A DNA stretch of 34,919 bases from Actinomycetota bacterium (GTDB taxonomy: Bacteria > Actinomycetota > Acidimicrobiia > Spongiisociales > ZC4RG35), in contig QQVI01000063.1 of the NCBI GenBank assembly GCA_003388545.1, positions 1-34,919 of the forward strand, written 5' to 3'. The position numbers and the translations under genes were made by a program. A model generated the notes under the pieces. That model was not told the DNA's origin. It did no database searches and saw nothing but the letters and a program-made list of their open reading frames with translations. Below, in pieces: positions 20,096-31,592 of the stretch (position 1 is its first letter; each line of letters starts with the position of its first letter).

Positions 20096-20737
20096 TCAGG
20101 CTCGTGCAGACGTCTTGATGTCGGCAAGTAGGCCTCGCACTCGCTCTTCTATCTCGTCCCTGATCGGTCGCACCTGATCGAGGTCCTTGCCCGAGGGGTC
20201 CTCGAGCTCCCAGTCGACGTATCTGTTCCCCGGGAACACGGGGCAGGCATCGCCACATCCCATCGTCACGACTACATCCGCGGCGCGGACAATCTCATCA
20301 GACCAAGGCTGCGGAATCTCGGACGTGATATCGATCCCCTTCTCGGCCATAGCCGCGACCGCTACTGCGTTGACCGTCTCAGCAGGCTCCGATCCGCCTG
20401 AGAAGACATCTATCTCCCCACCGGCGAGATGACGCATCCACCCGGCGGCCATTTGCGATCGACCTGCATTGTGAACGCATAGAAACAAAACGCTTGGATT
20501 CATAGTCGAAGTGTCGGCTTCGAGACGCACCAGTGCGCGTAGGCGATCTCTGGCAAAGCGCTCGGCAAGTAGAGGGACCCATTGAGACGTCTTGGACCGC
20601 TCGAGGAGCACACCCAGCGAATCGTTCATGAACCGCTCGATGGTCTCGGCGTTGAGCTGCCCATCGAATTGTCGCTGGAGGCGCTCGGCTGCCTGACGAA
20701 TCTGCAGCATCTCGGCGGTGGAGAGTGATACGGGCAT
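20096..20737 (-). CDS. arsC: Arsenate reductase with N-terminal three-helix domain
   Basis: 213 residues. Residues 1-75 form a helical domain like the dimerisation domain of actinobacterial arsenate reductases (LSTAEMLQIRQAAERLQRQF, NDSLGVLLERSKTSQWVPLL, AERFARDRLRALVRLEA). The rest is a low-molecular-weight phosphatase fold: LFLCVHNAGRSQMAAGWMR (Cys87, Arg93), VFSGGSEPAETVNAVAVAAM, VVVTMGCGDACPVFPGNRYV (Cys161, Cys165) and DWELEDPSG with the catalytic Asp. It reduces arsenate to arsenite; the organism class suggests mycothiol or thioredoxin as donor, by inference. Third gene of the ars operon, three bases after the aquaporin stop. Confidence 0.9.
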   Translation of the reverse strand: MPVSLSTAEMLQIRQAAERLQRQFDGQLNAETIERFMNDSLGVLLERSKTSQWVPLLAERFARDRLRALVRLEADTSTMNPSVLFLCVHNAGRSQMAAGWMRHLAGGEIDVFSGGSEPAETVNAVAVAAMAEKGIDITSEIPQPWSDEIVRAADVVVTMGCGDACPVFPGNRYVDWELEDPSGKDLDQVRPIRDEIEERVRGLLADIKTSARA

Positions 20738-20740
20738 TGT

Positions 20741-21424
20741 CTATGACCCCCTGAGGTCGGTTGTGTTGAGGTTTGCTGGATCAGGGAAGAAGAATCGGGT
20801 CGCATATGCAGCCAGGAACCCCGCTAGGACCTGAGCCACCAGAAACGCCGGGACCGACGCCGGGTCGATGCCCGCGTAGGTATCTGTGAACACTCTCGAG
20901 AGCGTCACCGCAGGATTGGCGAATCCTGTCGACGAGGTGGCAAACACGATGGCTGCGACCCAGGCACCGACAGCAGCCGGAATGGTTGATTCTTTCCCCA
21001 GCCTGACCAGGGCAAGGATCACGAAGACCAGGACAAAAGTGCCGATGGCTTCGGCAAACACCAGCCCGACTCCAGTACGAGCCGTTGTCGACACCTCGAG
21101 AGGCGCCTGTTGAAAGGAGATGTTGGCCGCCGCCACGCCAGCCAACGCTCCGACAACTTGTGCGATCGCGTAACCAACGGCCTCCCGGCCTGTCAGGGTC
21201 CCGGTGCGCCAGAAGCCGAGGGTCACCGCGGGGTTGAAGTGGGAGCCGGACACGGTTTGGAAGAGGAGGATGAGAACTCCCAGGGCCAGGCCGACTGTCA
21301 GAGCGTGCGCAATCAGCTGTCCGGCTTGGTCCCGGCCAAGTGTCTCTGCAGCGATACCGCTCCCCACGATCACGTACAGCAGAAGACTCGTGCCGAGCCC
21401 CTCGGCGCTGGCTCGCCGGCTCAT
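20741..21424 (-). CDS. Aquaporin-family channel in arsenic operon (AqpS-like)
   Basis: 227 residues from ATG 21424, which overlaps the arsR-arsC stop as ATGA (21421-21424); a longer frame runs into that gene and is rejected. Six helices and two half-helices of the MIP family, with motifs SGSHFNPAVTLGFW and TGFANPAVTLSRVF (both NPA). Other segments: LLYVIVGSGIAAETLG, AYAIAQVVGALAGVAAANIS. In Sinorhizobium an aquaglyceroporin, AqpS, takes the place of the ArsB pump, letting arsenite made by ArsC leave down its gradient; the same arrangement is inferred here because no ArsB or Acr3 is present. Confidence 0.85.
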   Translation of the reverse strand: MSRRASAEGLGTSLLLYVIVGSGIAAETLGRDQAGQLIAHALTVGLALGVLILLFQTVSGSHFNPAVTLGFWRTGTLTGREAVGYAIAQVVGALAGVAAANISFQQAPLEVSTTARTGVGLVFAEAIGTFVLVFVILALVRLGKESTIPAAVGAWVAAIVFATSSTGFANPAVTLSRVFTDTYAGIDPASVPAFLVAQVLAGFLAAYATRFFFPDPANLNTTDLRGS

Positions 21425-22089
21425 TCCGGGCCCGCCAATGTGGCGGTGGTCAGTTTGCCGACGCGTTCGGCAATCTCGTCGAATGCCGAGCGAAATGCGC
21501 GATCGGTCCCGTCGGCGACCGGGTCCGGCACCGACCAGTGGAGGTCTATCTTCGCTTTGGGGAGACCGGACTCGCGCGCCCGGTCGCAAACGCTGATCAA
21601 CAGGTCGGGCTCAGCCGGGATGCGCTCATAGCCACCGGGAGTGGCACGCGACAGATCGATGCCCCGCTCGAGGGCCACACGAACTGCCTTTGGATGAACC
21701 GTGGCGGACGGCCGGCTCCCTGCGCTCGTCGCCCGCCGCCCCGTCTCTCGGGTCCAATATGCGGCGGCGAATTGAGACCGGGCCGAGTTGTGCGTGCAGA
21801 CGAATGCGATCTCTTCGAATGGTCTGAGGCCCGGGCCGACCTCCACCGGCTGCCGGCCCGGCGTCAAGGAGACATATCTTCTCCGGCGATCACCTTCCGA
21901 GACCCGACGCTCTATCAGGCCGGCGCCCTCCAGAATGTCGAGATGGTGCGCCAGGAGGTTCCCTTCCATTCCTGAGATCCGCGCTAGCTCCGCCACCGTG
22001 CGATCGCTGAGTGTCAATTCATCGACGATGAGAAGACGTCTCTCATCTCCAAGCGCGGCGTGGGTCCTGGCACGATCGGAGAGGGTCAT
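21421..22089 (-). CDS. ArsR-ArsC fusion: regulator joined to arsenate reductase
   Basis: 222 residues. Residues 1-75 are an ArsR-type winged helix (AALGDERRLLIVDELTLSDR, TVAELARISGMEGNLLAHHL, EGAGLIERRVSEGDRRRRYV), but no Cys pair of the usual ELCVCDL kind is present, so metal sensing may differ. Residues about 93-222 are a low-molecular-weight phosphatase fold: EIAFVCTHNSARSQFAAAYW (Cys98, Arg104), AGSRPSATVHPKAVRVALER, LLISVCDRARESGLP and DLHWSVPDP with the catalytic Asp. Such fusions are known in actinobacteria. There is no Shine-Dalgarno; a promoter at 22098-22126 predicts a leaderless message. Confidence 0.9.
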   Translation of the reverse strand: MTLSDRARTHAALGDERRLLIVDELTLSDRTVAELARISGMEGNLLAHHLDILEGAGLIERRVSEGDRRRRYVSLTPGRQPVEVGPGLRPFEEIAFVCTHNSARSQFAAAYWTRETGRRATSAGSRPSATVHPKAVRVALERGIDLSRATPGGYERIPAEPDLLISVCDRARESGLPKAKIDLHWSVPDPVADGTDRAFRSAFDEIAERVGKLTTATLAGPE

Positions 22090-22182: not shown

Positions 22183-23124
22183 ATGTCCGGAGACGACACG
22201 GCGATCGAAGCGGCATACCGACACGACGCCGTTTTCTACTCGGGGGAGGCTGAGTTCGTTGAGGCGATCGGCTCGTTCCTGGAGTCGGGAGTAGGCCGGG
22301 GCGCCCGCGCCCTGGCGCTTGTCACACGGCACAAAGCGGACCTCCTGAAGAGTCGACTGGGCCCGGCGGCCGATTCGGTTGAGTTCGGCGACATCCTCGA
22401 GCTCGGAGAGAACCCGGCTCGCATCATTCCCGAGTGGCGGCGTTGGCTCGACGAGGCATCCAGCGAGGGGAGTCCGTTGATCGGGGTTGGCGAGCCGATC
22501 TGGGCAGAGCGCACCAGCGAAGAGATGGTGGAATCTCACAACCACGAGGCGCTTCTGAACCTCGCCTTCTCGGACGTGACGGACTTCTGGCTCAGATGCC
22601 CATACGACGCCTCGACACTCAACGAGGCCGATCTCGAGCGTGCCAGGACCACACATATGTCGTTGATCGACGGTGATGGCGAACACCACATCCAACTGGA
22701 CGTGGCCGCGATGGCCGCTGAGACACTTTCCGGGACACTGCCCAAGGCCCCGGGCGAGGGCTTGAAAGTCGACTTCTCGATCGAAGGGTTACATGACCTG
22801 CGTGAACTCGCGGCCAAACAGGCAGTGGAGGCTGGAGTCAGCGGTCGGCGAGTCGAAGACTTCGTGCTGGCCGTGAGCGAAATCGCAACCAACAGCCTTC
22901 AATACGGGAGTGGATCGGGGGCGGCGCACATCTGGCAGGGCGTGGCCGAAGTCGTCTGCGAGATTCGTGACTCGGGTCGGATAGTCGATCCCCTCATCGG
23001 TCGAAGACCGCCAGCGGGAGTAGGCCGCGGCTACGGAACCTGGATCTCGAATCAGGTGTGTGATCTCGTTCAGATTCGTTCTGGCGATGACGGAACCGTG
23101 GTCCGCGTTCACCAACGTGCGTGA
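22183..23124 (+). CDS. RsbA-like regulator: MEDS domain and anti-sigma ATPase
   Basis: 313 residues. Residues about 14-170 are a MEDS sensory domain (HDAVFYSGEAEFVEAIGSFL, GARALALVTRHKADLLKSRL, RIIPEWRRWLDEASSEG and LIGVGEPIWAERTSEEM, FWLRCPYDASTLNEADLE). Residues about 195-310 form a GHKL ATPase of the RsbW/SpoIIAB kind: DLRELAAKQAVEAGVSG, N box FVLAVSEIATNSLQYGSGSG, EIRDSGRIVDPLIGRRPP and GRGYGTWISNQVCDLVQIRS. Such proteins are annotated as anti-sigma factor RsbA-family regulators and feed a SigB/SigF-type network. It may govern the stress promoters found at 9239 and 9548, by inference. Divergent from the ars operon. No Shine-Dalgarno. Confidence 0.87.
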   Translation: MSGDDTAIEAAYRHDAVFYSGEAEFVEAIGSFLESGVGRGARALALVTRHKADLLKSRLGPAADSVEFGDILELGENPARIIPEWRRWLDEASSEGSPLIGVGEPIWAERTSEEMVESHNHEALLNLAFSDVTDFWLRCPYDASTLNEADLERARTTHMSLIDGDGEHHIQLDVAAMAAETLSGTLPKAPGEGLKVDFSIEGLHDLRELAAKQAVEAGVSGRRVEDFVLAVSEIATNSLQYGSGSGAAHIWQGVAEVVCEIRDSGRIVDPLIGRRPPAGVGRGYGTWISNQVCDLVQIRSGDDGTVVRVHQRA

Positions 23125-24808: not shown

Positions 24809-26053
24809 ATGAAAAGGCTTCTGATACTGGGTTCCGGCACGGCCGGAACCATCATCGTGAACAAGCTTCACCGTCGTCTCCCTGAAGATTGGGAGATACA
24901 TGTCGTCGAGCCATCCCGCGAGCACCTATATCAACCCGGGCTGCTCTTCCTCCCGTTTGGCAGGATCGATCCCAGGAACCTCCACCGCGAAACGGAGGCG
25001 TTCCTACCCAAGGGGGTGACGCGGTGGACGGGGACCGTGCAACGGGTGGTTCCCGATGGGGACAAGGTCGAGCTGGAGGACGGGACCGTCATCGAGTACG
25101 ACCAACTGGTCATTGCCACAGGGACCACACCCAGACCGGACCAGACGCCGGGTATGACCGGCCCGGGATGGCGGGAGACGATCCACGACTTCTACACCTA
25201 CGAAGGTGCTTTGGCACTGTGGGAAGCATTGCGGAACTTCGAGGGAGGGCGGCTCGTCGTACACGTGAGCGAGATGCCGATCAAGTGCCCCGTCGCTCCT
25301 CTCGAGTTTGCATTTCTCGCCGACGACCACTTCAGGGAATTGGGCATCCGGGATGACGTGGACATTGTCTATGTCACCCCCTTGTCGGGTGCATTCACCA
25401 AGCCAGTGGCATCCCGGAGGCTCGGAGACATGCTCTCTCGTCGACGCATCGAACTGGAGACGGACTTCTACGTCGAGCGAATCGAGGACGGAGCCCTGTG
25501 GTCATATGACGAGAGAGAGGTCCCATTCGACCTCCTCGTCACCGTACCGGTCAACATGGGAGCCAAGTTCGTCGGTGAGTCGGGGCTCGGAGACGAGCTC
25601 GATTTCGTCAAAGTCGACCAGGGCACTTTCCTCGCCGAGGGATACGAGAACATCTTCGCAATAGGGGATGCGGCAGCGCTCCCAACCTCGAAGGCTGGTT
25701 CAGTCGCTCACTTTGCTGCGGACGTCTTCGTGGAGAACTTCCTCGAGCACATCGCAGGCCTGCCGATGACCCGACGGTTCGACGGCCATGCCAACTGCTT
25801 CGTCGAGGCAGGCGGCGGCAAGGCGTTGCTGATCGATTTCAACTACGACACCGAGCCGCTCCCGGGTAAGTATCCGCTTGCCAGCATTGGCCCGCTCTCT
25901 CTCCTCAAGGAGACCAGAGCGAATCACCTCGGGAAGCTCGCCTTCGAGAAGATCTATTGGAACGTTCTGCTACCGGGCAGACCGATGCCCGTGGCCAGTG
26001 AAATGTCAATGGCGGGGAAGATCCCCGCCGATCAGATAGGAGATGAACTATGA
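24809..26053 (+). CDS. Sulfide:quinone oxidoreductase-like flavoprotein
   Basis: 414 residues. FAD/NAD disulfide-reductase fold: first Rossmann motif LILGSGTAGTIIVNKL, acidic end of strand 2 (HVVEPSREH), LVIATGTTPRPDQTPG, and FAD-binding NIFAIGDAAALPTSKAGSVA. SQR signatures are the YQPGLLFLPFG segment and redox Cys160 (EMPIKCPVAP) with Cys330 (DGHANCF); classical SQRs use three cysteines, and the first is missing here. It oxidises sulfide, or a persulfide, and passes electrons to the quinone pool, attached to the inner face of the membrane; substrate is inferred from family. GAGG lies before ATG 24809. First gene of a coupled operon with DsrC- and DsrE2-like genes. Confidence 0.85.
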   Translation: MKRLLILGSGTAGTIIVNKLHRRLPEDWEIHVVEPSREHLYQPGLLFLPFGRIDPRNLHRETEAFLPKGVTRWTGTVQRVVPDGDKVELEDGTVIEYDQLVIATGTTPRPDQTPGMTGPGWRETIHDFYTYEGALALWEALRNFEGGRLVVHVSEMPIKCPVAPLEFAFLADDHFRELGIRDDVDIVYVTPLSGAFTKPVASRRLGDMLSRRRIELETDFYVERIEDGALWSYDEREVPFDLLVTVPVNMGAKFVGESGLGDELDFVKVDQGTFLAEGYENIFAIGDAAALPTSKAGSVAHFAADVFVENFLEHIAGLPMTRRFDGHANCFVEAGGGKALLIDFNYDTEPLPGKYPLASIGPLSLLKETRANHLGKLAFEKIYWNVLLPGRPMPVASEMSMAGKIPADQIGDEL

Positions 26054-26364
26054 GCGATGTATTGGTCGCCGGAACACAGATCACGTTGGACGACGAAGGA
26101 TTCCTGACCGATCCGTCTGAGTGGTCCCCGGATGTCGCTAGCGAGCTCGCGGCCAACATCGGCCTCGAGCTATCGGATGAGCACTGGGCTGCGATCAATT
26201 TCGCCCGGACCGACTTCGAGGAGAACGGCGAGACGCCGACTCTTCGGCGCATGGCTCAGGCCGGTGGCGTCTCTACCAAGGAGATGTTCCGTCTCTTCCC
26301 CAAGAAGCCGGCGAAGAAGATGGCCTACGTGGCCGGACTCCCCAAGCCGGTCGGCTGCGTCTGA
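26050..26364 (+). CDS. DsrC/TusE-like sulfur carrier with a single C-terminal cysteine
   Basis: 104 residues. Matches the DsrC/TusE/DsvC family along its length: ITLDDEGFLTDPSEWSPDVA, LSDEHWAAINFARTDFEENG, ETPTLRRMAQAGGVSTKEMF, RLFPKKPAKKMAYVAGLPKP, ending VGCV. The C-terminal arm carries CysA as Cys103, one residue before the end. The second cysteine (CysB) of true DsrC, eleven positions upstream, is Ala92 here, so it can hold a persulfide but not form the intramolecular trisulfide of DsrC in dissimilatory pathways. It overlaps the flavoprotein gene as ATGA (26050-26053). Confidence 0.87.
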   Translation: MSDVLVAGTQITLDDEGFLTDPSEWSPDVASELAANIGLELSDEHWAAINFARTDFEENGETPTLRRMAQAGGVSTKEMFRLFPKKPAKKMAYVAGLPKPVGCV

Positions 26365-26393
26365 ACTTCAAACTCGAGCAAGGAGAACATGAA

Positions 26394-26906
26394 ATGACCG
26401 CAACAATGTCGGACACGCTCCCGACCCCGGATCTCGACTCAGACGCCGAAGGTAGGAAGCTGGCCATCATTTGCTCCAAAGGGTCGTTGGACATGGCCTA
26501 CCCGGGCCTCGTTCTGGCGAACGCAGCTCTGGGTGAAGGCATCGAGACTCATCTCTTCTTCACCTTCTGGGGCTTCGACATCATCAACAAGGAGACGATG
26601 GACCATCTGCAGTTCACGCCACTCGGCAATCCGGCCACGCACATGCCACCGTCTCTGATGGGGCTGCCGGGCATGACGGCCTTCGCGACCCACATGATGA
26701 AGAAGCAGATGGAGGGTCTCGACATCCCAGATGTGCCGGAGTTCCTCGAGATGATCACCGACGCAGGTGGGCACCTCTGGGGCTGCCGGATGTCTGCCGA
26801 CATGCAGCATCTCGACGAGGACGATCTCTACGACCGAGTCGAGGGGATCATCTCCGCTGCTGACTTCATGGAGCTCTCGGAGGGTGCCCAGACGATATTC
26901 GTCTGA
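26394..26906 (+). CDS. DsrE2-like sulfurtransferase
   Basis: 170 residues of the DsrE/DsrF superfamily, DsrE2 type. KLAIICSKGSLDMAYPGLVL (Cys27), ANAALGEGIETHLFFTFWGF, PPSLMGLPGMTAFATHMMKK (a hydrophobic or amphipathic stretch), and GHLWGCRMSADMQHLDEDDL (Cys131), the usual C-terminal active cysteine. It probably exchanges persulfide with the DsrC-like protein and the flavoprotein. AAGGAG lies eight bases before ATG 26394; an ATG-AAA-TGA mini-frame just ahead overlaps the start. Third gene of the sulfur operon; it is convergent with the LLM oxidoreductase with only four bases between. Confidence 0.87.
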   Translation: MTATMSDTLPTPDLDSDAEGRKLAIICSKGSLDMAYPGLVLANAALGEGIETHLFFTFWGFDIINKETMDHLQFTPLGNPATHMPPSLMGLPGMTAFATHMMKKQMEGLDIPDVPEFLEMITDAGGHLWGCRMSADMQHLDEDDLYDRVEGIISAADFMELSEGAQTIFV

Positions 26907-29379: not shown

Positions 29380-29835
29380 ATGACCACGAGCAACAGGGTC
29401 GACCCGGCGTGGATCGAGCGAGTCCGGTCCGAGTACGGGCATTGCTTCGGCTGCGGCCGTGACAACCCGATGGGACTGAAAGTCGACGGGTTTGAACGAG
29501 ATGGAAACACAGTCCTTGCGAGCTTCACACCACGTCCTGAGTACGGCGGATTCCATGGGATTCTCCACGGTGGGATTCTCGCCACGGCGATGGATGAGAT
29601 CCTCGGTTGGACGACCATTTTGGTTGCCGGGCAGATGGCGGTGACCGCAACACTGGATATCAAGTATCGAAAACCGGCACCTCCAACCGCTACCTATGAG
29701 CTGAAGGGAACCTTGGTCGAGCGACGAGGCCGTCGGCTACTTGTCGAAGCAGCGTGCTCGACGGCTACGGATGTCATCGCCGAGGCGTCAGGCTTGTTTC
29801 TCGCCACGGGACCCATAGAAGAGGTCGGCGTTTGA
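29380..29835 (+). CDS. Hotdog-fold thioesterase (PaaI-like)
   Basis: 151 residues from ATG 29380. HCFGCGRDNPMGLKVDGFER, then GGFHGILHGGILATAMDEIL with the HGGxxxTxxDE catalytic helix, TATLDIKYRKPAPPTATYEL and VERRGRRLLVEAACSTATDV. Such enzymes cleave acyl-CoA thioesters; the acyl group is not known. The C-x-x-C-G-x-x-N-P-x-G-L motif at the start is a common variant of the family. The stop overlaps the start of aceK as TTGA (29832-29835), so the two are translated together. Confidence 0.87.
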   Translation: MTTSNRVDPAWIERVRSEYGHCFGCGRDNPMGLKVDGFERDGNTVLASFTPRPEYGGFHGILHGGILATAMDEILGWTTILVAGQMAVTATLDIKYRKPAPPTATYELKGTLVERRGRRLLVEAACSTATDVIAEASGLFLATGPIEEVGV

Positions 29836-31592
29836 GCGGTGCGATCACGCAACTCTCGGACAGCCGACTGTCGAGCCTGGCGGCTGGGCGGATACTCGAT
29901 GGGTTCTCCGACTACATGGTGAGTTTCCGCGCCATCAATCAAAGGGCTCCGATCAGGTTCGCGGAGATGGACTGGGTGGGCATGCAAGCAGATGCCGTTG
30001 AACGCCTCGATCTCTACGCCGGAACGGTCGCTGACGTCATTCGCTCCATCGAGTCGCTGCTTGGGGAACGGAGCGACGACCGCACCCTGTGGGTTGCCAT
30101 CAAGGCGGTCTTTTCGTCTCTGATCTCCGATCGTCAGGATTGGGAGCTTGCCGAGACCTTCTTCAACTCCATAACGCGCAAGGTGTTCACGACTGTTGGC
30201 GTCGACTCGGCCGTGGAATTCGTCGACACCGATTTCGACAGCCCTCCAAGTCCTTCCCGCGAGCCGGTGTACGTCACGTTCCAGAAGAGAGAGTCTCTGA
30301 ACGAACTGGTGGCCGGCATCCTCGAGGGCGCGAGTGGAGGCATCGAGTTTGCTGACCTCGATAGCAACGCAAGGGAGGTGGCAAGCCGGATCGAGTCGAG
30401 GTTGAGTGCGGCGGGCGGGCTGCCTGTGGTCGACCGGGCAGAGATCGTTCGTACCCTCTTCTACCGGGGGCAGGCTGCGTACATCGTCGGGCTTCTCTAC
30501 TCGGGTTCGATCCAGGTGCCGTTGGTGGTCGCTCTCCGCAATGGAGATGGAGGGGCGGCCGTCGATGCGGTGCTTCTCACCGAGAACGAAGTGTCGATTC
30601 TCTTCAGCTTCACCCGCTCCTACTTCCATGTCGATCTGGCGCGGCCCTATGACCTCGTCAGGTTCCTCCGTCGGCTCATGCCCCGGAAGCGAGTGGCCGA
30701 GTTGTACATCTCCATCGGTCACAACAAACACGGGAAGACCGAGCTATATCGCGACCTCCTGCGCCACCTCCAGTCGACCGACGAGAGGTTTGAGCACGCC
30801 CGCGGCACGCGAGGGCTGGTGATGATCGTCTTCACGATGCCTGGCTACAACGACGTGTTCAAGGTGATACGTGACCGTTTCCCCCCTCCGAAGCGGACGA
30901 CGAGGCGGGCCGTCATGGCCAAATACCGCATGGTGTTCCAGCACGACCGGGCAGGCCGCCTCATGGACGTTCAGGACTTCCAGCACCTCAAGTTCAACAA
31001 GTCGCGCTTCAGCGATGAGTTGCTCGAGGAACTCCTCGATGAGGCCGGCAGCACAGTGACCCTCGAAGGGGATCACGTGATCGTGAAGCATGTCTACGTA
31101 GAGCGCAGAATCGTTCCGCTCGACCTGTACGTGAGAGAGGCTGTCCCGTCGGCAGCCGCAAACGCCGTGGTCGACTACGGGCAAGCAATCAAAGACCTCG
31201 CCTCGACGAACATCTTTCCTGGGGACCTGCTCATGAAGAACTTCGGGGTCACCAGGCACGGTCGGGTCGTCTTCTATGACTACGACGAGCTGTCACCACT
31301 GACCGAGGTCAAGTTCCGGAGGATCCCCGAGCCACGGGACGACTTCGACGCGCTGTCGGATCAGCCGTTCTACGCAGTCGGCGATCGTGATGTGTTTCCC
31401 GAGGAGCACAGCAACTTCCTCGGGTTGGGGCCACGTCTCCGAAAGCTCTTTGAGGAGACCCATGGAGACCTGTTCGAGGTCGAGCCATGGCTGAAGATTC
31501 AGAATCGAATCAGAGCCGGGGAGATGATCGAGGTGTTCCCGTACTCAGAAGAGGCGCGCCTGGCCGACGCTGTCGGGTTCCGCGGGTGGTGA
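29832..31592 (+). CDS. aceK: Isocitrate dehydrogenase kinase/phosphatase
   Basis: 586 residues from TTG 29832 (LSGAITQLSDSRLSSLAAGR), chosen because it overlaps the thioesterase stop and the next residues align with the start of Escherichia coli AceK (578 residues). Switches isocitrate dehydrogenase on and off to send carbon to the TCA cycle or the glyoxylate shunt. Hallmarks: RPYDLVRFLRRLMPRKRVAE, LYISIGHNKHGKTELYRDLL, ATP loop HARGTRGLVMIVFTMPGYND, Lys344 in FKVIRDRFPPPK, Asp465 in GDLLMKNFGVTRHGRVVFYD and Asp483 in the following YDYDE. These correspond to E. coli Lys336, Asp457 and Asp475 with a constant offset of eight, so all three sites look intact. Unusual outside Proteobacteria. Confidence 0.92.
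   Translation: MSGAITQLSDSRLSSLAAGRILDGFSDYMVSFRAINQRAPIRFAEMDWVGMQADAVERLDLYAGTVADVIRSIESLLGERSDDRTLWVAIKAVFSSLISDRQDWELAETFFNSITRKVFTTVGVDSAVEFVDTDFDSPPSPSREPVYVTFQKRESLNELVAGILEGASGGIEFADLDSNAREVASRIESRLSAAGGLPVVDRAEIVRTLFYRGQAAYIVGLLYSGSIQVPLVVALRNGDGGAAVDAVLLTENEVSILFSFTRSYFHVDLARPYDLVRFLRRLMPRKRVAELYISIGHNKHGKTELYRDLLRHLQSTDERFEHARGTRGLVMIVFTMPGYNDVFKVIRDRFPPPKRTTRRAVMAKYRMVFQHDRAGRLMDVQDFQHLKFNKSRFSDELLEELLDEAGSTVTLEGDHVIVKHVYVERRIVPLDLYVREAVPSAAANAVVDYGQAIKDLASTNIFPGDLLMKNFGVTRHGRVVFYDYDELSPLTEVKFRRIPEPRDDFDALSDQPFYAVGDRDVFPEEHSNFLGLGPRLRKLFEETHGDLFEVEPWLKIQNRIRAGEMIEVFPYSEEARLADAVGFRGW

Follow-up and report, generated by a model that had tools for sequence, protein, structure and literature searches.

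A candidate sulfide oxidation operon of a predicted sulfide:quinone oxidoreductase, a single-cysteine DsrC and DsrE2 recurs across Actinomycetota

In A. vinosum, sulfur is transferred from DsrE to DsrC at the penultimate cysteine of the latter, CysB being dispensable for this step (PMC3397948). CysB itself is found only alongside DsrAB, and its position is otherwise almost always occupied by Ala, Ser or Thr (PMC3397948). Among DsrE2 proteins, DsrE2B of M. cuprina showed no reaction with any sulfur compound tried (PMC4175335). For sulfide:quinone oxidoreductases (SQRs), the quinone site of the A. ferrooxidans enzyme is lined by Phe357, next to a conserved cysteine towards the C-terminus (PMC9666304), whilst a review gives an HxxU motif for the type III selenoprotein-subtype family (PMC13188914). 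Each of the three protein families is already known. We found no description in the open-licence full-text literature of the three genes as a module, of its spread or of its exclusion from genomes encoding dsrA or TusD, and the open-licence literature yielded no biochemistry on any module member.

The locus described here lies on contig QQVI01000063.1 of the actinobacterial assembly GCA_003388545.1, of which the whole stretch of 34,919 nucleotides that was analysed is referred to as the window. It comprises the following features.

24809..26053, + strand: SQR-like flavoprotein gene, 414 aa; NF049943 'type III', Cys form
25286..25288, + strand: codon of redox Cys160, in IKCPVAP; conserved as Cys in all intact module SQRs that could be read
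25796..25798, + strand: codon (TGC) of redox Cys330, in GHANCF; the dsr-bearing lineage of actinobacteria has Sec (TGA) here
26050..26364, + strand: DsrC-family gene, 104 aa; one terminal cysteine (Cys103)
26323..26325, + strand: codon of Ala92, at the CysB position of dissimilatory DsrC
26356..26358, + strand: codon of Cys103 (CysA)
26394..26906, + strand: DsrE2-family gene, 170 aa; Cys131 and Cys27

The SQR stop and the dsrC start overlap in an ATGA, 29 bases separate dsrC from dsrE2, and a purine-rich stretch resembling a ribosome-binding site lies 5' of each start (AGAGGA for the SQR gene, AGGAGA for both dsrC and dsrE2). The first-pass annotation of this DNA had described three tightly coupled genes with this overlap and spacing, and its coordinates and named residues all proved correct. 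We infer that the three genes are co-transcribed as a single operon. Elsewhere, the window carries an arsenic-type cluster (20096-22089, - strand) made up of an ArsR-arsenate reductase-like fusion, an aquaporin-family MIP and a second LMW phosphatase/ArsC-like protein, a fusion of a MEDS sensory domain with an ATPase domain of histidine-kinase-like type (22183-23124, + strand) and an isocitrate dehydrogenase kinase/phosphatase, AceK, with both Pfam domains (29754-31592, + strand). AceK is known mainly from proteobacteria.

The flavoprotein matched the NCBIfam model NF049943, 'type III sulfide quinone reductase, selenoprotein subtype', at 579 bits against a cut-off of 525 (578.6 bits in the genome-wide search). 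Its Cys160 and Cys330 align with both redox cysteines of human SQOR and are invariant in the readable intact module SQRs of the pooled loci. An N-terminal FAD-binding GxGxxG motif is found at residue 8 (GSGTAG), and a second GxGxxG, for NAD(P)H, is absent from the 414-residue sequence. For the AlphaFold2 model (mean pLDDT 79, with residues 347-373 and 384-414 of low confidence), the best solved fold match was human SQOR (TM 0.79), followed by the SQRs of A. ferrooxidans and A. aeolicus and then by flavocytochrome c and type II NADH dehydrogenase. The NF049943 score and these fold matches place what had been annotated as an 'SQR-like' flavoprotein with Cys160 and Cys330 on firmer ground; the protein is predicted to be a membrane-surface sulfide:quinone oxidoreductase, with its substrate and electron acceptor assigned from sequence and structural model.

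The second protein of the module scored 113 bits with PF04358, 85 bits with TIGR03342 and 70.3 bits with the TusE equivalog NF008562, for which the cut-off is 191. In alignment with the DsrC proteins of A. vinosum and A. fulgidus, the penultimate Cys103 corresponds to CysA and Ala92 occupies the CysB position, as the first-pass annotation had read them, and CysB is present in 0 of 138 module DsrCs, the position being Ala or Ser; these pooled samples may share species, so all such counts are of loci and not of independent events. The 138 copies comprise subtype I (KKPAKK[ML][AS]Y, n = 116), subtype II (KGPAKxxA[KR], n = 20) and two further copies of other types, with CysA conserved in 136/136 of subtypes I and II and missing only from one degenerate copy. 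The label 'TusE-like', also given in that annotation, stands for the presence of CysA alone; the score lies far from the TusE cut-off and there is no TusD/DsrE partner above cut-off. The degenerate copy belongs to a module (L161, G280:C16) in which the SQR is missing both redox cysteines and the C-terminal cysteine of DsrC has been lost by a frame change, through decay or assembly error.

The third protein matched PF13686 at 112.8 bits (cut-off 25) and scored 110.6 bits with the equivalog NF047629, short of its cut-off of 210. Its best fold match was SSO1126 (2qs7), with the cysteine of which Cys131 aligns. All readable modules include DsrE2. Cys131 is retained in 132 of the 133 copies that could be read; Cys27 is less conserved and common in subtype I modules only. 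At one locus (L099:1862-2305), a cysteine-free DsrE2 sits inside a complete-looking module, and DsrE2 is therefore no obligatory cysteine carrier there.

An SQR-anchored scan of one genome per species recovered at least 588 relatives of the flavoprotein, and the best 80 loci were read; these were nearly all actinobacterial, with single MAGs from Trueperaceae and Chloroflexi. The order SQR-DsrC-DsrE2 on one strand recurred in 79 of these 80 best loci, from many genera, which excludes chance, and at the odd locus (L013) the retrieved DNA stops just past the SQR. Across a phylum sample of 246 actinobacterial genomes, DsrC was detected above cut-off in 30, of which 17 encoded proteins scoring 86-123 bits; all 17 adjoined an NF049943-type SQR, with DsrE2 next. 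A class sample gave DsrC profile matches in 66 of 247 genomes (~27%), and of the 41 DsrC-anchored loci read from this class, 39 had SQR before and DsrE2 after, the other two having DsrC at a contig end. The three-gene order, a genome search for which had been proposed with the original reading, is thus found across the phylum. Distance matrices of the three proteins were correlated (Mantel r 0.44, 0.48 and 0.62; 0/999 permutations), as expected for co-inherited genes, although a common species history alone would also produce such values.

Some of these loci include further genes. A DUF1641 gene lies between sqr and dsrC in approximately 29 loci and was rejected as a core part, being present in only part of the loci and absent from both the window and its whole genome. 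Just upstream of the module in approximately 25 loci, though not in the window, is a gene for an HTH_17 regulator (e.g. L058:4200-4985 and L060:497-1372), and two of the three such proteins inspected also have a PocR sensory domain; the ligand of this regulator could hint at the inducer of the module. Beyond DUF1641 and the HTH/PocR regulator, no conserved neighbours were found in the loci examined. Fusions of SQR or DUF1641 to DsrC were also rejected, as the extended open frames that precede certain dsrC genes turned out to have been read out of frame, and so were plasmid copies: the 63 plasmid matches all had <60% identity, and those listed were mostly haloarchaeal SQR homologues rather than the module.

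The other 13 of the 30 DsrC-bearing genomes in the phylum sample belong to two families, and their DsrC proteins score 141-159 bits and carry CysB in 13/13 (QACKIAGLPKPTGC or close). In 12 of these 13, dsrA was detected above cut-off, the exception (G035) having no dsrA match. None of the 17 module genomes encoded dsrA above cut-off; TusD/DsrE above cut-off was likewise found in no module genome and occurred only in 11 dsrA-bearing genomes. Within the window's own 93%-complete genome, neither dsrA nor TusD/DsrE gave any match at all. A relay in the module genomes would therefore be neither the Dsr pathway nor TusABCDE. The phylum data agree with the rule that ties CysB to DsrAB (PMC3397948), save for G035, in which a CysB-bearing DsrC lies divergent from a selenocysteine-containing SQR (L116, G035:C28:30000-45000). 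That no dsrAB or sox gene was in view had already been remarked from the window, and this extends to its genome as probed with dsrA and SoxB, the SoxB search reaching 24 bits against a cut-off of 550 with none above it. No sHdr genes (hdrC1B1A-hyp-hdrC2B2, lipoate-binding protein) were seen in the examined part of the window. TusA was rejected as an obligate partner, being found in 12 of 17 module genomes and 161 of 246 overall, approximately its base rate.

An NF049943-type gene with an internal TGA was found in eight genomes from one of the two families with CysB-bearing DsrC; seven were over the cut-off and the eighth (G169) was split across contigs. The TGA aligns with Cys330 (HATU) in 6/6 of the Sec-SQR genes read. 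At four loci in dsrA-bearing actinobacteria (L113, L114, L115 and L117, from G137, G083, G060 and G094), TusA, TusD/DsrE, TusC/DsrF, TusB/DsrH and AprA/AprB lie beside the Sec-SQR, the proteins of two of these loci having been searched against families. These surroundings tie the flavoprotein family to sulfur metabolism. One SQR clade so appears in two settings, as Sec-SQR with DsrEFH/Apr and as Cys-SQR with single-cysteine DsrC and DsrE2. G119:C136, G087:C2, G109:C14 and G011:C1 hold more distant SQR-like genes that score ~247-273 bits with NF049943 and each contain a single in-frame TGA, and these are possibly a second Sec-containing SQR clade.

We consider it moderately probable that the module is a sulfide oxidation operon with a protein sulfur relay running from SQR to DsrE2 and then to DsrC. 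The flavoprotein would oxidise H2S at the Cys160/Cys330 pair and pass two electrons via FAD to the quinone pool, whilst the enzyme-bound sulfane sulfur would most likely be taken up first by Cys131 of DsrE2 and passed from there to Cys103 of DsrC, which would act as a mobile persulfide carrier through this single terminal cysteine. As this DsrC is without CysB, it could not form the intramolecular disulfide or trisulfide of the Dsr cycle, and would carry sulfur rather than release it reductively. The proposed order of transfer draws on homology, on the DsrE-to-DsrC direction in A. vinosum and on gene linkage. Weighing against the scheme are the cysteine-free DsrE2 of L099, the lack of reaction of M. 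cuprina DsrE2B with sulfur compounds (PMC4175335) and, as regards membrane attachment, the low confidence of the C-terminal part of the SQR model; nor is any acceptor gene linked to the module. We also suggest, more tentatively, that the enzyme is an SQR whose physiological sulfane acceptor is the DsrC cysteine, reached directly or via DsrE2, instead of a small thiol, cyanide or sulfite. The DsrC arm would then have a third function, next to those with DsrAB and with TusBCD-MnmA, and one that is widespread in Actinomycetota.

The order of transfer is also where one alternative departs from this scheme. The DsrC arm might enter the SQR active site and take the sulfane sulfur itself, in place of glutathione or sulfite, leaving DsrE2 a downstream or structural role. 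No cysteines of the module are more strictly conserved than those of the SQR and Cys103 of DsrC, sqr adjoins dsrC or is separated from it only by the DUF1641 gene, one module has the cysteine-free DsrE2, and A. vinosum DsrC is persulfurated at its penultimate cysteine by sulfide as well as by DsrEFH (PMC3397948). Yet the retention of DsrE2 in every readable module, with Cys131 nearly invariant, implies that it normally matters, and the known direction from DsrE to DsrC favours DsrE2 as the donor, making such a direct hand-off unlikely. A different role for the flavoprotein, such as the reduction of a DsrC persulfide or disulfide, is suggested by the NADH dehydrogenases among its related folds; it appears very improbable for a protein whose best sequence and fold matches are SQRs, which keeps both redox cysteines and in which the NAD(P)H motif is absent.

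Two further alternatives concern the fate of the sulfur. Persulfide formed on the flavoprotein could pass through DsrE2 and DsrC to a thiolating enzyme, for instance MnmA, in the manner of E. coli TusE, and the window's genome does encode MnmA and two TusA homologues alongside a CysA-only, TusE-resembling DsrC. Against this, no module genome has TusD/DsrE above cut-off, the DsrC falls short of the TusE equivalog model, TusA is no more frequent than its base rate and the control Corynebacterium glutamicum, which encodes MnmA, lacks DsrC, so thiolation can proceed independently of DsrC; we therefore regard a biosynthetic relay as highly unlikely. It is also conceivable, if doubtful, that the SQR releases polysulfide and that DsrC and DsrE2 buffer or sense persulfides without feeding a pathway. 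Many of the genera with modules, among them Nocardioides and Micromonospora, are not known to be sulfur lithotrophs, no downstream oxidation gene is linked to them, and an HTH_17 regulator, often with PocR, precedes some of them, all of which would suit detoxification or sensing. However, the three-way linkage and co-divergence of the proteins suggest a working relay, and DsrC and DsrE2 carry no DNA-binding domain.

If the SQR-DsrE2-DsrC relay is correct, the actinobacteria possess a compact sulfide-oxidising module, present in 17 of 246 sampled genomes of the phylum and 27% of those sampled from the class, many carriers of which are not usually counted among sulfur oxidisers. It would account for the occurrence of DsrC without dsrAB or TusBCD, and would caution against taking a dsrC gene in metagenomes as a sign of dissimilatory sulfur metabolism. 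The data also provide a clean test of the CysB/DsrAB rule inside a single phylum (PMC3397948).

Compared with dissimilatory DsrC, the window protein shares the PF04358 fold family, the penultimate CysA and the conserved arm GLPKPxGC, but it is without CysB, is only ~33-36% identical to the dsr-type DsrCs of actinobacteria and comes from a genome with no dsrA match and no TusD/DsrE above cut-off. With TusE it has CysA alone in common, and it differs in scoring under the equivalog cut-off, in having no TusD partner above cut-off and in its linkage to an SQR. The DsrE2 protein resembles DsrE2A of the A. vinosum rhd-tusA-dsrE2 arrangement and DsrE2B of M. cuprina in its PF13686 domain, its SSO1126-like fold and a conserved cysteine near the C-terminus, whereas its gene does not adjoin tusA or a rhodanese gene in the window. 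In the flavoprotein, Phe331 directly follows Cys330, like Phe357 by the conserved cysteine of the A. ferrooxidans SQR. The HxxC/U motif is the same as in the selenoprotein form of NF049943, but is present as HANC, with Cys in place of Sec, and the gene for this Cys-form enzyme has those of single-cysteine DsrC and DsrE2 as its fixed neighbours. The genes of the examined Sec forms instead adjoin those of TusA, DsrEFH and AprBA, and in G035 that of a CysB-bearing DsrC.
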